The notes under the pieces were generated by a model that saw only the letters and a list, made by a program, of their open reading frames with translations, did no database searches and had not been told where the DNA came from. A stretch of 56,357 nt of DNA, from positions 1 through 56,357 of IMG/VR virus record IMGVR_UViG_3300035005_000004; one strand, 5' to 3'. Positions 9,883-19,094 of this stretch are shown piece after piece; position 1 is the first letter of the stretch; each line of letters starts with the position of its first letter. The position numbers and the translations under genes were made by a program. The stretch is from a virus.

Positions 9883-11025
9883 GTGTCCATCCATCCCGAC
9901 TATCAGCAATTCTTGGACGGGCGGGTGACGCTCTGGACGGCAGATTGCTTCGCCGCTCTCGAAGCCATTGAGGCCGACAGCGTGGATTGTGTGGTTTGCA
10001 GTCCTCCTTACTACGGGCTCCGCGATTACGGCGTGGACGGTCAGATCGGACTCGAGCCGACGCTCGGAGAACACCTCGACGTTATGGTCCGCGTGTTCGA
10101 AGCGGTGAAGCGGGTTCTGAAGCCGACCGGCACCTGCTGGATCAACTACGGCGACTGCTACGCTACCACGCCCAACGGTCGCTCTGCGGCCGACACGAAA
10201 GCGACCGGCAACGATGATCGCACATTCCGCGACAAGCCATTTTCGACCATCGGCGGTGTGCTGAAGGCCAAAGACCTTTGCATGATGCCGAACCGCCTCG
10301 CCATTGCGCTGCAGGAAGCTGGATGGTGGGTTCGATCAGAGATCGTTTGGGGCAAGACCAACCCCATGCCGGACAGTGCGAAAGATCGCCCTGGAACTTC
10401 ACACGAGAAAATCTTCCTGCTCTCCAAGTCAGCCCGCTATTGGTACGACGCAGAGGCCGTTCGCTTTGGACTACGGCCTAAGACCCTGACGACCTACGGC
10501 ACGGTCCGCAACGACGTCGAGGATGATGGTAGCGGCAAAGTAAAGAAGGCGAACATGGCCGCCACAATGCCGGTTCGCCAGTCTCGCAAGGTCAAAGTGC
10601 CGGCTGGGTGGGACACAGGCGAAGGAGGGCATGGATCAATCCATCGCGAGGGACGCGGAGACCCTGAATATCTTGAAGTGGCGATTGAAGGACGCAATCT
10701 CCGCAACTACGAGCCGGCACCGCTCACCGTGTGGCCAATGGCGACGCAGCCGTTCTCTGACGCTCACTTCGCGACATTCCCGCCGGAACTAGCCGAGCGC
10801 TGCATCCTCGCCGGGTGCCCGAAAGGCGGCTTGGTACTCGACCCATTCGGCGGCGCTGGCACAACGGCCCTGGTTGCCCTTCGCCACGGTCGGCACGCTA
10901 CATTGATCGAACTCAACCCAGAATATGCCGAGATGGCCCGCCGTCGGATCGAAACCGAATGGCGTGTGCCGCAGAAGCCAAAGACAGTCGAATACGGGCC
11001 GCTCTTCGGCGGGGAGGCCGCATGA
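9883..11025 (+). CDS. Site-specific DNA amino-methyltransferase, 380 aa
   Basis: GTG start at 9883 with a GGAG-like site. SPPYYGLRDYG at residues 40-50 is the catalytic (S/D)PP(Y/W) motif; a Ser first residue is typical of N4-cytosine enzymes but occurs in N6-adenine ones too. The AdoMet-binding motif DPFGGAGTT lies at 320-328, after the catalytic motif, as in the beta class. The 200-310 region is the likely target-recognition part. No restriction gene is nearby, so it is probably an orphan enzyme that masks phage sites from host restriction. Confidence 0.85.
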   Translation: MSIHPDYQQFLDGRVTLWTADCFAALEAIEADSVDCVVCSPPYYGLRDYGVDGQIGLEPTLGEHLDVMVRVFEAVKRVLKPTGTCWINYGDCYATTPNGRSAADTKATGNDDRTFRDKPFSTIGGVLKAKDLCMMPNRLAIALQEAGWWVRSEIVWGKTNPMPDSAKDRPGTSHEKIFLLSKSARYWYDAEAVRFGLRPKTLTTYGTVRNDVEDDGSGKVKKANMAATMPVRQSRKVKVPAGWDTGEGGHGSIHREGRGDPEYLEVAIEGRNLRNYEPAPLTVWPMATQPFSDAHFATFPPELAERCILAGCPKGGLVLDPFGGAGTTALVALRHGRHATLIELNPEYAEMARRRIETEWRVPQKPKTVEYGPLFGGEAA

Positions 11026-12389
11026 CCTCGCACACTCTCACCCGGCAAAGCACTGTCCTCGACATCATCGCCGAATACAACCGCAAGGCTGCCAATGTCG
11101 ACGAGGCTATCAAAGCGTACAACGACGCGTGCACTGCCGTGGAAATGGCGGGCACGATCATGGGCACCTACGTCAACCCGGTGCTGCGCGGTCGCGCCCA
11201 TGTGCATGCCTCCGAGATGCGCAAGAACCTGTTGTCTTCGGGATGGAAGGCGATCTACGGCCGCCTGAATATCGACCGGATCGCCAGCGCCAAAGACAAG
11301 AAGCTTTTTGAACGCACGTTGGCCGACCCGCCGGAACTGACCTTCGACAACGCCAAGGCGACGTTCGGCCCATATCTTGAGAACCCGCGCGCGCACATTC
11401 TTCGCGGTCTCGCCGAAACCTTTGCTGACCTCGACCCGGCCTATAAGTCGCACTCCAAGGTCAAGATCGGTGTCAAGGGGCTGCCTAAGCGGGTCATCAT
11501 CGGTTCTTGGGGCAGCTATTCCGACACTTATGGAAAGAACAAGTTCCGCGACATCGTGAACGCGCTCGCGGCCTATCGCGGGCAGCCGTTGATGGAACGG
11601 GAAGAGTTCAACGCCCTTGCCATCATGCACAGCGCCGGAGCCGATGGGATACTTGATGGACGAGAGGCTTCAGAAACCGACCGCTACGGCAAGGTGACGG
11701 TCGCCAAAACGCTCGATCGCGGCATGACGGTTCGCACCTTCGCCAACGGCAACGCCCACGTTTTCTTCGCACCCAATACCTTGCTCGACATCAACCGTGC
11801 GCTCGCCGAATTCTACGGCGAGGTTTTGCCGGACGCCGAAGAAGACGACGCCAAGCCGCGCACTGGCACAGCCGTCTCGAAAGACCTGCAATTCTATTGG
11901 TCGCCGGCCGATGTGATCGAACGGGCTTTGGAATTTGCCGGCCTATCCAATTTACGGGAGTGGCGGAACAATCCTCCCGAGCCTTCTCGCGTCCTGGAAC
12001 CATCCTGTGGTGATGGCCTGATCATGGACGCGATCCGCGTTCGCGGCCATCGGGCGTTTGGTGTCGAATATCACGCCGTCCGCGCCGCCGAGGCACGTTC
12101 CAAGGGACACAACGTCCTAACGGCTAACTTCCTCGAATGCCCGGCCAGCCCGGTCTACGACATGGTCGTGATGAACCCGCCCTTCAGCGGTCGCCATTAT
12201 CTCAAGCACGTCCGCCATGCACTCGAGTTCCTGAAGCCAGGCGGGCAGCTCGTTTCGATCCTCCCGGCAACCGCCCACTACGACCACGGCGAGCTCGAAG
12301 GCGAATGGCGTGACTTGCCCGTAGGCAGTTTCGCTGAGGCTGGCACGAACGTACCTACCGGAATGCTGAAGATCAGGAGGGCAGCATGA
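11022..12389 (+). CDS. DUF4942-type adenine methyltransferase, 455 aa
   Basis: ATGA overlap at 11022 fixes the start within a longer frame. The N-terminal ~270 residues look like the DUF4942 region found before phage methylase domains. The C-terminal domain has an AdoMet motif (VLEPSCGDGLIMDAI) and the catalytic NPPFSGRHYLKHV, as in N6-adenine enzymes. Together with its upstream neighbour it gives the phage two amino-methyltransferases. Likely counter-restriction, possibly with regulatory methylation. Confidence 0.85.
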   Translation: MTSHTLTRQSTVLDIIAEYNRKAANVDEAIKAYNDACTAVEMAGTIMGTYVNPVLRGRAHVHASEMRKNLLSSGWKAIYGRLNIDRIASAKDKKLFERTLADPPELTFDNAKATFGPYLENPRAHILRGLAETFADLDPAYKSHSKVKIGVKGLPKRVIIGSWGSYSDTYGKNKFRDIVNALAAYRGQPLMEREEFNALAIMHSAGADGILDGREASETDRYGKVTVAKTLDRGMTVRTFANGNAHVFFAPNTLLDINRALAEFYGEVLPDAEEDDAKPRTGTAVSKDLQFYWSPADVIERALEFAGLSNLREWRNNPPEPSRVLEPSCGDGLIMDAIRVRGHRAFGVEYHAVRAAEARSKGHNVLTANFLECPASPVYDMVVMNPPFSGRHYLKHVRHALEFLKPGGQLVSILPATAHYDHGELEGEWRDLPVGSFAEAGTNVPTGMLKIRRAA

Positions 12390-12658
12390 CGCAAGTCCAA
12401 TGGGCTGGCCCGCTCTTCTATCCGCCTACCGGCATGATAGCGGTCATGGACAGCGGCTCGCGTATTGAGGTTTGGGCAGACGAGTCCGAGTCGAAAGACT
12501 GCTTTACAGGCGTGATGTTGCTCCAAGGCCGGACAGATGATCAGCGCGCCATTTTCGATACATCATGCATGTGGGGCCGCTGTTTCATCGACCATATCGA
12601 AGAGCCGACGGAAGCCGACTTGCGGCTCGGCGGCTTGTCGCGAGAGGAGGCCGCCTGA
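12386..12658 (+). CDS. Hypothetical protein, 90 aa
   Basis: ATGA overlap at 12386 and TGATG coupling to the next gene. Starts MTQVQWAGPLFYPPTGMIA and ends with an acidic helix (EEPTEADLRLGGLSREEAA). Compact mixed alpha/beta appearance, three cysteines. No family recognised. Confidence 0.65.
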   Translation: MTQVQWAGPLFYPPTGMIAVMDSGSRIEVWADESESKDCFTGVMLLQGRTDDQRAIFDTSCMWGRCFIDHIEEPTEADLRLGGLSREEAA

Positions 12659-13332
12659 TGCACAAGCTCACCCTCGATCCTTCGACGCAATTCGGTTGGG
12701 CCTTGATGCTGGACGATAGCCATTTGCCGGCAGACCAGCAGCGCACGCCAGGTCAGCGTCTTTCCTATGGCACATGGGATTTGACCAAGGATACCGACGG
12801 CACGCGCTACAAAGACCGCGCCAGCTACGGCCGGCACTTCATCCGATGCCTCAATGATCTGCTTCGCAAACACGATATCGCTGACGACGAAATCGAGATC
12901 GCGCTTGAGGGGGAATCTTACGGTTCACAGCGGAGCGAAGCCGGGCGGCTTATGGCTGCGATGTGGCGAATTGCCCTGGAATTGTGGTGCTCAGGCAAAG
13001 GCCGTCCCTATCCGATCATTTGCCCGCCCGATACGTGGCGATCGTCATTCATCCACACGACCAAGGCGCCCAAGGAAGTGGGGGCCGGGCTTGAAGATAA
13101 CGATCGCTATGCTGCCCGGCGCAAGTGGCTGAAAGATCGGGTCTTGGCCGAATGTCATGCGCCTGGCCGCAACCTCAAGCCGAAAAACGATAACGAGGCT
13201 GACGCGCTCGGCATGATGTACTGGCTTGTCCACGACGGGCCAGAAGCTTTGGAGCAAAAGCGGGCCGAGAAGAAGGCCAAGGCATCGGCCAAGCGTGCTC
13301 AAAAGAAACTCGATCTGCAGGTGGCAGCGTGA
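12658..13332 (+). CDS. RuvC-like Holliday junction resolvase, 224 aa
   Basis: The ATG at 12658 overlaps the preceding TGA. The RNase-H-fold acids are in place: D7 (LTLDPSTQFGWAL), E84/E86 (IALEGESYG) and D182 within NDNEADALGMMYWL. A Lys-rich tail follows. Phage RuvC-type enzymes resolve branched replication or packaging intermediates. Position between methyltransferases and helicase fits a replication/recombination role. Confidence 0.8.
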   Translation: MHKLTLDPSTQFGWALMLDDSHLPADQQRTPGQRLSYGTWDLTKDTDGTRYKDRASYGRHFIRCLNDLLRKHDIADDEIEIALEGESYGSQRSEAGRLMAAMWRIALELWCSGKGRPYPIICPPDTWRSSFIHTTKAPKEVGAGLEDNDRYAARRKWLKDRVLAECHAPGRNLKPKNDNEADALGMMYWLVHDGPEALEQKRAEKKAKASAKRAQKKLDLQVAA

Positions 13333-14546
13333 ATGTGGCTGTTCGTCCCCATCACCTCGACATCCTCTCCATCTGCACAGGCGGAGCCGGACTTGATCTC
13401 GGCGTCGAGCTGGCAATTCCAGGCGCTCGCTCAGTCTGCATGGTCGAGAGGGAAGCCTTCGCCGTCGCGCACCTGGTTTCAGCGATGGAACAAGGTCTCC
13501 TTCATCCGGCTCCTGTGTGGAGCGATGCCCGATCCTTCGACGGCAGACGCTGGCGTGGATGCGTGGACGGCCTCATTGGCGGCATCCCGTGCCAGCCTCA
13601 TAGCCTTGCCGGAAAGCGCGAAGGCTCCGACGACGAACGCGACCTCTGGTCAACAGCCCGCCGCATCATCGTCCAATCGGGCGTTTGGTTTGTCCTCATC
13701 GAAAATGTCTCGGGAATGCTCTCGGCGAAGCCCGGCCTCGATGCGGGCGCGCTACGGGTCAGGCGTGACCTACAGCGATTGGGTTTCGACGTTGAGGGAG
13801 GATTGTTCACGGCGGCAGAGGTCGGCGCGAGCCACGAGCGCGAACGCCTCTTCATCCTCGGCGTGGATAACGCCGCGGGCGAACGAGAACGACGAATCGC
13901 CAGAGAGTTGGCAGGTGCGGCGAATGCGCATGGCGCCAGCGGATCGACCCGGGGAGACAGGGACACTCACATTGCAGGCGAAGGCGTTTCAGGCGTCGGC
14001 CTGGCCGACGCCTACTGCGAACGACTGGAAGGGCAGCGGCCCAACGCTGGAGCGCAAGGACGGCCAGATGCGAGGCGACCGGCTGGACTATGCGACGGAA
14101 CAGCTTTGGTCGACACCGCGGGCATCGGACGGGGAGAAGGGCGGGCCGAACCAAGCCTTTGGAGCGGGCGGGGTGCCGTTACCAGCGCAGACGGTGCAAT
14201 GGCCGACGCCGACATCGTTGAGTTTCGGAGACAGCCATCAGCCGGGGAACTCGCGCTCATACAACGAGACGATGCGGTTGGCCTCTTTCCTCCCGGGCCA
14301 AGCGACCTCTCCAGTTGGCGACGTACCCTTGAAAGAGCGCCGGAGCTTGAACCCGCTGTTCGTCGAGTGGCTGATGGGCTGGCCTCCCGGTTGGACGTTG
14401 GGCGTGTGGATCGACTTCGCATGCTCGGCAACGGAGTTGTCCCGCTTCAAGCAGCGTATGCGATCCGCACTCTCGCAGCTCGCCTTGCCGGCAGAGGCTC
14501 CGCCGGCGCAGCTCGCCTTGTTCGGATGATGGAGGTGGCAGAGTGA
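13329..14546 (+). CDS. C5-cytosine DNA methyltransferase, 405 aa
   Basis: GTGA overlap at 13329. Motif I is SICTGGAGLDLG, the catalytic motif IV is GGIPCQPHSLAGKR (Cys88), motif VI is ENVSGM (~125-130), and the C-terminal motif is RLRMLGNGVVPLQAAYAI. So the enzyme is complete. Residues ~180-300 form a variable region with LADAYCERLEGQR and MADADIVEFRRQP. A second long frame overlaps it almost entirely. Function: methylates cytosine C5 at an unknown site, probably for protection. Confidence 0.85.
   Translation: MNVAVRPHHLDILSICTGGAGLDLGVELAIPGARSVCMVEREAFAVAHLVSAMEQGLLHPAPVWSDARSFDGRRWRGCVDGLIGGIPCQPHSLAGKREGSDDERDLWSTARRIIVQSGVWFVLIENVSGMLSAKPGLDAGALRVRRDLQRLGFDVEGGLFTAAEVGASHERERLFILGVDNAAGERERRIARELAGAANAHGASGSTRGDRDTHIAGEGVSGVGLADAYCERLEGQRPNAGAQGRPDARRPAGLCDGTALVDTAGIGRGEGRAEPSLWSGRGAVTSADGAMADADIVEFRRQPSAGELALIQRDDAVGLFPPGPSDLSSWRRTLERAPELEPAVRRVADGLASRLDVGRVDRLRMLGNGVVPLQAAYAIRTLAARLAGRGSAGAARLVRMMEVAE
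13333..14529 (+). CDS. Overlapping +1-frame ORF with WPTP motifs, 398 aa
   Basis: This frame is open from ATG 13333, four bases after the methyltransferase start, to 14529. Its first ~120 residues are Ser/Ala-rich and look like a shadow. From about residue 150 on it has ordered repeats: WITPRANENDESP, WPTPTANDWKGSG, WSTPRASDGEKGGPNQ, WPTPTSL, then LNPLFVEWLMGWPPGWT near the end. I recognise this pattern from proteins found with or annotated as phage cytosine methyltransferases. Both frames therefore seem constrained: a dual-coding locus. Whether it is made as a separate protein is unknown. Confidence 0.5.
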   Translation: MWLFVPITSTSSPSAQAEPDLISASSWQFQALAQSAWSRGKPSPSRTWFQRWNKVSFIRLLCGAMPDPSTADAGVDAWTASLAASRASLIALPESAKAPTTNATSGQQPAASSSNRAFGLSSSKMSRECSRRSPASMRARYGSGVTYSDWVSTLREDCSRRQRSARATSANASSSSAWITPRANENDESPESWQVRRMRMAPADRPGETGTLTLQAKAFQASAWPTPTANDWKGSGPTLERKDGQMRGDRLDYATEQLWSTPRASDGEKGGPNQAFGAGGVPLPAQTVQWPTPTSLSFGDSHQPGNSRSYNETMRLASFLPGQATSPVGDVPLKERRSLNPLFVEWLMGWPPGWTLGVWIDFACSATELSRFKQRMRSALSQLALPAEAPPAQLALFG

Positions 14547-16802: not shown

Positions 16803-17245
16803 TCGATCCGCACGTGCAAAGCTTATGCGATGAATTCGGCGTTCCGATCGTTCCGAAGCATCGCTATCCAGCCATAGGCGAGACGCGAGCCGTCGCAGCC
16901 ATCCGCAAGGTCATTGAACGTGGCGGAATGGATGACGCCCGCGTCGTCATGCGCACTTTGACCGAGACAGCCAACAACAAGGCCAGCCTCGAAGCGGAGT
17001 GCATCGGTGCGGCCTTCGACCTCTACAGGCACGGCAGGGATCGCTTCGAGCATGACCCTTCCAAATGGATGGAAGTCTGGGACATTTGCCCTGTGGCTGA
17101 ATTGCAGGCCATCGCGCATGATTTACGCGGCTTCGTTCCTTTGCGACCCGCATTGGCCGGCATGATCTACGAACGCATCTGGCGCGCCTATGGGCCTAGA
17201 TCCATTCAACCCGATCTTCTCGATGACAGGAACTTCCAGCCATGA
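16799..17245 (+). CDS. Hypothetical protein of the replication operon, 148 aa
   Basis: ATGA overlap at 16799 (MIDPHVQSLCDEFGVPIVP). Mostly helical, with RAVAAIRKVIERGGMDDAR and a C-terminal DLRGFVPLRPALAGMIYE. It resembles short proteins found between helicase and late-switch genes in rhizobial phages, but I cannot name a family. Confidence 0.65.
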   Translation: MIDPHVQSLCDEFGVPIVPKHRYPAIGETRAVAAIRKVIERGGMDDARVVMRTLTETANNKASLEAECIGAAFDLYRHGRDRFEHDPSKWMEVWDICPVAELQAIAHDLRGFVPLRPALAGMIYERIWRAYGPRSIQPDLLDDRNFQP

Positions 17246-17940
17246 CCGAAGGCGATATCGCAGAACTGTTCATCCGCGCTGCGGAGACCGAGGCCAAGTT
17301 GCCCGAGGTCAATGGGCTTCGGGAAAACTTCGGCAGGTACACATTGCCGTGGGTGCATGATCTCGGCGATATCAATGGGCGCAGGCGTGAGTTTGGGGAC
17401 CAACTCCTACCAGGGGACGACCCCTTGGGTGATTGGTCGAAGTCCGCCAGCCGCGTGTTGGCGGAGTGGGGCAAACGACCGACGACACGGCAGATTGAGA
17501 ATTGGGAGCGGTGCATGGACATCATGCGATCCTTTCTTACCGACGAAGGTCAGAGGCGTTCATTGTGGGCATGGGCGAGGGCACAAGCGGGCACCTTGAC
17601 CAGGCCGGGACGGCGCAGCAGGATCAGCTTTGCGCGCTGGTGTCGCGATGTCGAGAAGATTGCGGAAATCACTGGTCACAGGCGAAAAAACCGCGCCATT
17701 GCATCACTTTTTGCAGGAATGCACGGCAAACCTGATTTGCATTGCAAAAATCATGCGGAAGGGGTGTTGCCTGATACCCAAGAAATCAGTCATATTTTCG
17801 CTACGGTCGAAGGTGATCGCGCAGTATACGACGCCAAGCGAGTATACTCATGGCGTGATGACCCAAGCTTCAGCAAATCAACTGGCATGAGCCTTCGTGA
17901 GTGGCGCAACGCCAAGCGGCGCCAGAAGCAGGCGGCTTAG
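17242..17940 (+). CDS. DUF6362-like protein, 232 aa
   Basis: ATGA overlap at 17242. Residues 75-165 (WGKRPTTRQIENWERCMDI, WAWARAQAGTLTRPGRRS, FARWCRDVEKIAEITGHRR) look like the DUF6362 pattern seen at this spot in alphaproteobacterial phages. The C-terminal third is basic (SLREWRNAKRRQKQAA). Last gene of the rightward early operon, directly before the structured RNA region. Function unknown; its Arg-rich helices suggest nucleic acid binding. Confidence 0.65.
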   Translation: MTEGDIAELFIRAAETEAKLPEVNGLRENFGRYTLPWVHDLGDINGRRREFGDQLLPGDDPLGDWSKSASRVLAEWGKRPTTRQIENWERCMDIMRSFLTDEGQRRSLWAWARAQAGTLTRPGRRSRISFARWCRDVEKIAEITGHRRKNRAIASLFAGMHGKPDLHCKNHAEGVLPDTQEISHIFATVEGDRAVYDAKRVYSWRDDPSFSKSTGMSLREWRNAKRRQKQAA

Positions 17941-18650
17941 ATCGTTCGCAAGCGTATCTTGCGAGTAGGCGACGGCCGCCGAAGATAGCCGTAGTCGGTT
18001 GAACGCGACAGGAAGGCCTCGTGAACAACGCACCTGCTTCGGCAGGCCGACTAAGGCAGCAATAGAGTTTCCGCGAGAGCGGACAGGGTTGGGCGCACCG
18101 GGACCGCGCACAAGTAGCTCAACAGGATAGAGCGACCGACTTCTAATCGGTAGGTTTCTGGTTCGAGTCCAGACATGTGCGCCATTCATCGCCGTCCATG
18201 ACGGCAACGACAGTCCGGCACCGGTAGCAGGATAATGGCCCGGTCGCGTTAAGGTCACCATGGGGGCGGTGGCGTCGGCAGAAATGCGAGATGAACCGGC
18301 AGATGCTTGCGGGGCCTGCCCGTCTCGTAGCGAGGCTCAGGAGCTATCCTGGCAGCCGGTGAAAGGCCGGCCCTCGCTGTATCATTCGAATTGCCCGCGC
18401 CAGCGCTCCATGACCTCAAGAGCCATGTGCCAGCGGATGCCAGTGTGGGTAAGCAAATCAGGAACGGCGGACGGACGAGGCTAAGGCCCGTGAGGTGCTT
18501 GGGAAAGTGTGGGAGGCGAAAGCCGATGTACCACTCCCCTGATCGCCAAGGCGGGGTGGGAAGCGAGCGGTCCAGTCCGTTCCTGATACCAATGCGGGGT
18601 CATCATGCCAGTAACGATCCCCCTGCAATGCTCAGAGCGGCGGTGGCGTT
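17941..18650 (+). ncRNA. Large structured RNA region, GOLLD/ROOL-like or new, with embedded tRNA
   Basis: About 710 bases between the early operon and a convergent gene contain no credible coding frame, yet many stems. Seen directly: 17947-17952/17958-17963; 17972-17976/17988-17992; a UUCG hairpin 18033-18046; a GAGA hairpin 18070-18083; tRNA 18108-18184; 18191-18196/18200-18205; 18220-18224/18240-18244; 18324-18334; 18338-18351; 18355-18371; a GAAA hairpin 18515-18524 inside GTGG/CCAC (18509-18512/18531-18534); and an 11-bp long-range stem 18457-18467/18577-18587. GNRA and UUCG loops, size, phage location and a tRNA inside match what is known of GOLLD and ROOL RNAs. Class membership is inference and the ends are approximate. 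Confidence 0.6.
18108..18184 (+). tRNA. tRNA-Arg (anticodon UCU)
   Basis: A complete cloverleaf: acceptor GCACAAG paired with CATGTGC (one A-A mismatch), D stem GCTC/GAGC, anticodon stem ACCGA/TCGGT with loop CTTCTAA (anticodon TCT), five-base variable loop, T arm TCTGG-TTCGAGT-CCAGA, discriminator G and an encoded CCA. It reads AGA, usually a rare codon in high-GC hosts. It sits inside the structured RNA region. Confidence 0.9.
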
Positions 18651-19016
18651 CTACTTCTTCGTTTGATGGGCTGCTGCATCAGATACTTCTCGTCCTCTTC
18701 GGTCGATGAAATCGCGAAGCGCGGTGTGGTTATCAGAAATCCGCTGCATCGCTTCTGGTGTCAGTTTGCCCTTCGATGCCTCTTCGAGAAGTTCAAGGTG
18801 GTAGGCGAAGTGAAGTGAAATCGGATAGAGGCTGCCACCTATCTTAGAGATCACATCAGATCGGTACTTGTAGTCGGAAAGGGCGAGCTCAACCGCCTTT
18901 TCGCGGAGGTGTCGCCTTTCATCTCTCCTGCCTTGAATCCATATCGTGATGATGGAAGTTGCGGAACCGATCAGCGCGCCGGCCAAAGCTGATACCAGCG
19001 GAACCCAAAACTCCAT
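18651..19016 (-). CDS. Membrane-anchored hypothetical protein, 121 aa
   Basis: ATG at 19016 is chosen because GGGGAG lies eight bases upstream. Residues 3-24 form one membrane helix (VPLVSALAGALIGSATSII); after a basic stop-transfer (QGRRDERRHLREK) the rest is helical and probably cytoplasmic. It is convergent with the structured RNA and divergent from the late operon, typical of a moron expressed in the lysogen. Function unknown. Confidence 0.7.
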   Translation of the reverse strand: MEFWVPLVSALAGALIGSATSIITIWIQGRRDERRHLREKAVELALSDYKYRSDVISKIGGSLYPISLHFAYHLELLEEASKGKLTPEAMQRISDNHTALRDFIDRRGREVSDAAAHQTKK

Positions 19017-19094
19017 GCCCATTCTCCCCAAGGCCCGTCATGAGAGCTTCGCCCAGGCACTGGCAAAGGGCAAGACGGCGTCACCTAGGGGCAT

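Follow-up and report, generated by a model that had tools for sequence, protein, structure and literature searches.

A rod-shaped RNA family linked to tRNA genes in phages of Alphaproteobacteria and Actinobacteria

What is encoded in ~710 nt of a phage genome that separate two gene blocks and hold no credible gene? The question is posed by positions 17941–18650 of the window, as we call the whole 56,357-nt viral sequence analysed here (IMG/VR record IMGVR_UViG_3300035005_000004). An initial annotation, made from the sequence alone, had read this stretch as one giant structured RNA with a tRNA-Arg built in, either of the GOLLD or ROOL type or of a new class. GOLLD and ROOL are non-coding RNAs of phages and prophages whose role is not known and which often lie close to tRNA islands (PMC12286853). 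Our analysis favors a different reading, to which we assign a probability of roughly 65%: several structured RNAs, independent of one another, would form an island that is transcribed together with a tRNA gene. One of them, referred to as element B, would represent a new family of phage RNAs, stable and free-standing, that act in trans and are cut from tRNA-type transcripts.

Layout and folding of the non-coding stretch

The stretch begins at the stop of a plus-strand ORF (17242–17940; PHROG 37864, function not known) and ends at an opposite-strand ORF (18651–19031, minus strand), with the small and large terminase genes just downstream. As none of the three ORFs crossing it (17878–18261 on the minus strand, 18260–18484 and 18391–18666 on the plus strand) had a Pfam match, its proposed non-coding character was upheld. 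A tail sheath gene identifies the phage as a myovirus, again as first suggested. The early region of this phage carries a cluster of DNA methyltransferase genes (9883–14546; N6_N4_Mtase, DUF4942 with a methyltransferase domain, and a PHROG methyltransferase).

ARAGORN and Rfam recognised a single known RNA in the stretch, namely the predicted tRNA-Arg(UCU), which forms an intact cloverleaf with a UCU anticodon on the plus strand (18108–18184; RF00005, 65 bits). Even at E ≤ 10, Rfam returned nothing besides this tRNA for 17850–18750, i.e. neither GOLLD (RF01998) nor ROOL (both also without a match at the gathering score) nor any other large RNA, and the assignment to these two families had to be abandoned.

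Folded as a whole, the 700 nt reached a z-score of only −2.0 (20 shuffles only). Piecewise folding left 18457–18589 as the sole part to stand out (z = −3.4, none of 200 shuffles being equally stable), and its minimum free energy fold contains an 11-bp stem (18457–18467/18577–18587) that had been singled out beforehand. The segments 18185–18320, 18260–18400 and 18321–18456 folded like shuffles (z = 0.34, −0.58 and −0.53, respectively). Many of the ten-odd local stems originally counted are thus attributable to chance in G+C-rich sequence, as 18185–18456 illustrates, while two of them, with a UUCG and a GAGA loop, proved to belong to the conserved modules described below (motif A and the frame 5′ of the tRNA, respectively). 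Positions 18211–18456 (plus strand), for which no homologue was found and which fold no better than shuffles, represent a non-coding spacer. A weak terminator-like stem-loop lies 3′ of element B (18634–18652, plus strand); with one match vs. a shuffle mean of 0.6, it is no evidence by itself.

Element B is a covarying, unbranched rod

Beyond tRNAs, a blastn search of the region against phage genomes yielded one non-coding match, in Microcystis phage Mwe-JY13 (L001; 74.5% over 109 nt, E = 1e-8). The core common to this phage and the window was used as a pattern on viral and bacterial genome collections, and a covariance model (R1), built from 44 members in a sequence-only MAFFT alignment, was then run on the fetched loci. 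In the window, element B occupies 18457–18588 on the plus strand and scores 103.7 bits with R1 (E = 9e-27), this copy having been among the 44 sequences that built the model. Mwe-JY13 itself carries ~730 nt of non-coding sequence after its large terminase gene (L001:4487–5220), ending in a T-arm-like element (GGGTTCGAATCCC) with no recognisable tRNA. A GcrA-like gene suggests the true host of this phage to be an alphaproteobacterium.

The family consensus is a single unbranched rod, ~130 nt long in the window and 73–200 nt across the family. Its closing helix P1 counts ~13 pairs, with one A bulging out of the 3′ strand, and is followed by a bulged GGA, one C-G pair and one R-Y pair; adjoining the GGA bulge is an internal loop of almost invariant sequence (AGGCUNNGG / GUGGGAAGCGAG), and further inward come the helices P3 (CCCG/CGGG, in which U-A or G-C pairs are rare substitutes), P4 and P5 (GUGG/CCAC). 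Parts beyond P3 are dispensable, as evidenced by minimal forms of 73–76 nt (L027, L032, L077, L112). The window copy has every family feature, including the GGA bulge and the invariant loop, the latter at about 18478–18486 / 18556–18567. Its P1 consists of the 11-bp stem mentioned above, as the outer part, plus GGAC (18469–18472) paired with GUCC (18570–18573), with A18574 bulged; the R-Y pair is G18477–C18568, P3 is formed by 18487–18490/18552–18555, and P5 by 18509–18512/18531–18534.

Covariation in homologues, named in advance as a test, was found for element B. In the 44-member sequence-only alignment, 84.8% of cells were paired and 143 double-sided changes were counted, compared to 62 in shuffles (0 of 500 shuffles as high); sliding the partner strand by one column lowered pairing to ≤49%. 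In the full family of 97 sequences (91 effective), five helices covaried very strongly, and the highest mutual information coincided with the helix pairs of one rod. Pair counts in this larger alignment were GC33/CG31/AU20 for P1, AU54/GC37 for the R-Y pair and UA50/CG18/AU3 for P5, with P3 being 99–100% paired. Compensatory changes affected almost every pair of this conserved RNA, and G-U wobbles were accepted among the helix pairs, such as GC23/GU13 for P1 of the 44-member alignment. One phage contig harbors two copies (L010:400–527 and L039:7646–7785) with identical P1 arms (TTGCTGCGGCAGAC) and differing inserts.

Long ORFs cross element B in four G+C-rich loci (L005, L009, L024, L094), in the frame RTDEAKARE...QAGVGSER. 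A coding reading was rejected, as the frame on the 3′ side varies (QAGVGSER in L005 and L009 vs. ASRGGKR in L007), and read-through ORFs elsewhere overlie tRNAs as well (L092). Element B may at times sit inside a gene, given that the flanks in L009 and L094 resemble real phage proteins. A tblastn search with the ORF upstream of the L005 read-through frame gave no match, and insertion into genes gained no further support.

Element B is an accessory phage gene

About a hundred phages and prophages of Alphaproteobacteria and Actinobacteria carry element B. Host contigs with a copy in a one-genome-per-species collection belonged almost exclusively to Alphaproteobacteria (Methylobacterium, Azospirillum, Aureimonas, Bosea, Rhizobium, Roseomonas, Sphingomonas, Microvirga and others), with Terracoccus as an actinobacterial representative, and at least eight of these places correspond to DNA listed as viral in IMG/VR, as judged by identical scores. 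Whereas ~80 viral contigs have the element, sampling 384 other genomes of the alphaproteobacterial class brought no clear match (at most one doubtful, 29.7 bits); likewise, 296 sampled genomes of the actinobacterial class had none. As it is nearly absent from these two samples of host-class genomes, element B is a phage gene, not a host gene. Plasmids gave no match. Among isolated phages, it is present in Streptomyces phages of the Stanwilliamsviridae, where R1 scored Braelyn with 82.9, Limpid with 49.0 and NootNoot with 40.8 bits.

The closest phages to the window by terminase (L151, 89%) lack the element, as do all 72 scanned TerL relatives of the window phage. Together with ~3/4 of element B loci having no tRNA within 2 kb, this marks the element as accessory. 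No family of Rfam 15 matched element B on the tested loci, and we found no paper describing this RNA in a literature search of incomplete coverage, with most subscription papers outside it. Of the two branches of the original proposal, that of a new class was thus borne out insofar as the stretch contains one new RNA family with covariation, if not more.

Element B keeps company with tRNAs and tmRNA

At 11 of 92 distinct loci, a tRNA lay ≤12 nt from element B, compared to a mean of 0.49 and a maximum of 3 in 1000 trials of random placement on the same contigs. All 114 tRNAs within 3 kb were on the same strand as the element and none on the opposite one. In the window, the distance to the tRNA is 274 nt. 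The link between element B and tRNAs is strong, not obligatory.

In some phages, the element is wedged between tRNAs with gaps of 0–4 nt, as in the orders Ala-B-Gly (L131; 2 and 3 nt) and Phe-B-Gln (L015), or between a tRNA and tmRNA (Asn-B-tmRNA in L121, Val-B-tmRNA in L077). Braelyn, NootNoot and Limpid each have an annotated tRNA array with element B in its unannotated gap; in NootNoot, inspection by eye gave the order tRNA-Arg, small hairpin, element B and, 10–20 nt further on, a G+C stem and T run that together look like a terminator. Two phages of different collections (L032:202–230 and L245:2467–2492) share one small hairpin (TTGACATAGCC...GGCATGTCA) between tRNA-Arg and element B. A shared neighbor protein was not found: no PHROG or family recurred in more than 3 of the 41 upstream or 45 downstream neighbors.

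Motif A and the tRNA frame are separate modules

Directly 3′ of the upstream ORF lies motif A, a structured RNA of ~110–120 nt (17942–18060, plus strand) identified by homology to L040 (75% identity over 108 nt, E = 1e-14), with a further match in L218. A pattern scan found it in 13 contigs, of which 12 distinct sequences, i.e. the window and 11 other phage sequences, could be aligned. It comprises a 5′ hairpin (17947–17963), a second hairpin (17968–17971/17977–17980) whose loop ACGGC (17972–17976) pairs with GCCGU (17988–17992) to form a pseudoknot, and a closing helix (17993–17998/18047–18052). Compensatory changes were seen in the second hairpin (pair 8–18, GC6/CG6; pair 9–17, CG/UA), and the pseudoknot was 100% paired in 12 of 12 sequences, with one A-U replacement. 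Covariation is good, though not overwhelming, because the 12 sequences form a small and related sample. In several phages including the window, motif A appears by eye to sit directly 3′ of the end of the same type of gene. Most carriers have motif A without element B (L236; L230–L240); the two occur together in the window and in L040, where B is truncated. This 3′ remnant (L040:1021–1070), ~150 nt past motif A, was missed by R1.

The tRNA-Arg of the window is nested in a bipartite hairpin frame. Its 5′ half (18068–18093, plus strand), a CCGC-GAGA-GCGG hairpin followed by ACAGGGUUGG, is conserved in L250/L151, L251 and L252. The 3′ half (18181–18210, plus strand), GCCAUUCAU followed by a GCCGUC-CAU-GACGGC hairpin, is near-identical over 27–31 nt in L151/L250 and L251, while L252 keeps CCAUUCAU and continues with a different hairpin. 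The frame is hence known from four phages, the window and these three others, in which different inserts, some tRNA-like by eye, replace the tRNA. Two such inserts (L252:1725–1900 and L151:4970–5090) are tRNA-like with long insertions or an unusual order, possessing a D-arm and a T-arm and having the anticodon region replaced; ARAGORN did not call them. The notion of a built-in tRNA accordingly survives in part, for the frame, and fails for element B, of which the tRNA is no domain but a neighbor or insert. Other phages have the frame without motif A and without element B. The modules thus shuffle like genes, as independent units.

Proposed role of element B and alternative explanations

The reading of element B as a trans-acting RNA builds on its conserved RNA structure, its position and strand relative to tRNAs, the lack of a linked protein gene and its rarity outside phages and prophages. 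From these we infer that it would be transcribed as part of tRNA-type (array) transcripts and freed by cuts at the ends of the long closing helix P1, made by tRNA-maturing enzymes. The internal loop AGGCUNNGG / GUGGGAAGCGAG beside the GGA bulge might then be offered in trans to a protein or ribonucleoprotein partner, which is a guess, with the tip being free to vary from a few to >100 nt. As element B keeps company with tRNAs and tmRNA, our best guess, and a tentative one, is a partner from translation or from the metabolism of tRNAs; candidates would be a host factor occupied by the phage or a nuclease distracted by it.

Small ribozymes, too, can take the shape of a rod interrupted by an asymmetric internal loop that hardly varies, and given that element B often abuts tRNAs, it might itself serve to cut the transcripts of tRNA arrays, be it as a ribozyme or as a processing element. 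We consider this unlikely, since most copies have no tRNA nearby, no Rfam ribozyme matches, and the two flanks would stay joined through the outer helix, leaving no obvious cleavage product. A start codon and a plausible ribosome-binding site 15–20 nt after the element in L010 and L012 would be compatible with a cis-acting element of the next gene, i.e. a riboswitch, leader or attenuator. However, the downstream gene differs in almost every phage, and several copies run directly into a tRNA or tmRNA, and that of NootNoot into the terminator-like stem, which renders a cis-acting function quite improbable for the family at large, even if loci such as L010 and L012 might have one.

One giant ornate RNA over 17941–18650, cage-forming and with the tRNA in a linker, whether akin to GOLLD and ROOL or of a comparable new class, is very unlikely. 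Its size and place would fit, tRNA islands are found close to GOLLD and ROOL and tRNAs within some GOLLD linkers (PMC12286853), motifs A and B co-occur in two phages (albeit with a truncated B in L040), and long non-coding stretches precede B in L001 and L014 as well. Yet Rfam models found nothing even at E ≤ 10, the middle 250 nt fold like shuffles, and homology to L001 and L014 was not detectable outside B. Element B stands alone in ~95 other phages, among them L013 (with just 87 nt of upstream space), and motif A occurs without B in L236 and others. As B, A and the frame each occur apart, with L151 lacking B and L040 retaining A along with no more of B than its 3′ end, the single large RNA of the initial annotation gives way to separate modules. 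The least probable reading treats element B as a mobile palindrome or as a site that acts as DNA (in packaging, in recombination or as an origin hairpin): the long inverted repeat, the proximity to terminase genes in several phages and the phage with two copies sharing identical P1 arms (L010, L039) would suit it, but the strand is always that of the tRNAs (114:0), the helices tolerate G-U wobbles (e.g. GC23/GU13 in P1), the conserved internal loop is asymmetric, and the P1 sequence varies between lineages, unlike a recognised repeat.

Comparison with known RNAs

Bacterial SRP RNA and other rod-like RNAs also have an asymmetric internal loop that is close to invariant; element B resembles them in this respect, which gives no more than a lead, and has no Rfam match. 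Mimicry of ribosomal RNA was considered as well. When R1 was run against E. coli 16S, 23S and 5S rRNA, the one weak match (23S ~1415–1475, L249:1456–1516; 13 bits, E = 0.015) covered the 5′ strand only, sharing GGACGGAGAAGGCUAUG, and is probably due to chance; a likeness of P5 to 23S helix H76, noticed by eye, was judged the same.

In size and setting, the nearest parallel to element B is provided by rnaC and rnaD of phage T4, annotated as stable RNAs of 139 and 119 nt inside the phage tRNA cluster. Part of the element B family shares their setting, inside a phage tRNA array and on the same strand, and the parallel extends to setting only: run on the T4 cluster with filters off, R1 gave a best score of 4.6 bits and no match over rnaC or rnaD, and T4 RNA C ends T-arm-like, whereas element B does not. 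Another structured RNA of phage tRNA arrays is tmRNA, including its permuted alphaproteobacterial form, which adjoins element B in L077, L121 and L246; in contrast to tmRNA, element B has no tRNA-like domain, no tag reading frame and no Rfam tmRNA match. GOLLD and ROOL, like element B, are phage and prophage non-coding RNAs often found near tRNAs (PMC12286853), but they are branched, ~600–800+ nt long and form multimeric cages, as opposed to an unbranched rod of 73–200 nt with unrelated sequence and no model match at E ≤ 10. Nor do the homologues present a single ~700–900-nt RNA with a conserved 3′ domain as in GOLLD; they retain modules only, with element B being conserved and found alone. 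Hence, the fold and sequence of element B are new, while structured RNAs that accompany phage tRNAs are a kind already known from T4 RNA C/D, GOLLD and ROOL (PMC12286853), beside which element B represents a third independent case.

Implications

Phage tRNA arrays are much studied, yet the RNAs in their inter-tRNA gaps are seldom annotated, and model R1 makes routine annotation of element B possible. Element B may, as a tentative proposal, found a so far undescribed class of phage RNAs, which would act as ribonucleoproteins in the takeover of translation and be encoded and processed like tRNAs in phages from two phyla of bacteria. Two more new families might be represented on the same island by motif A and the tRNA frame. 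The element B family offers a concrete handle on phage effects on translation, and the Streptomyces phages that carry it allow immediate testing.
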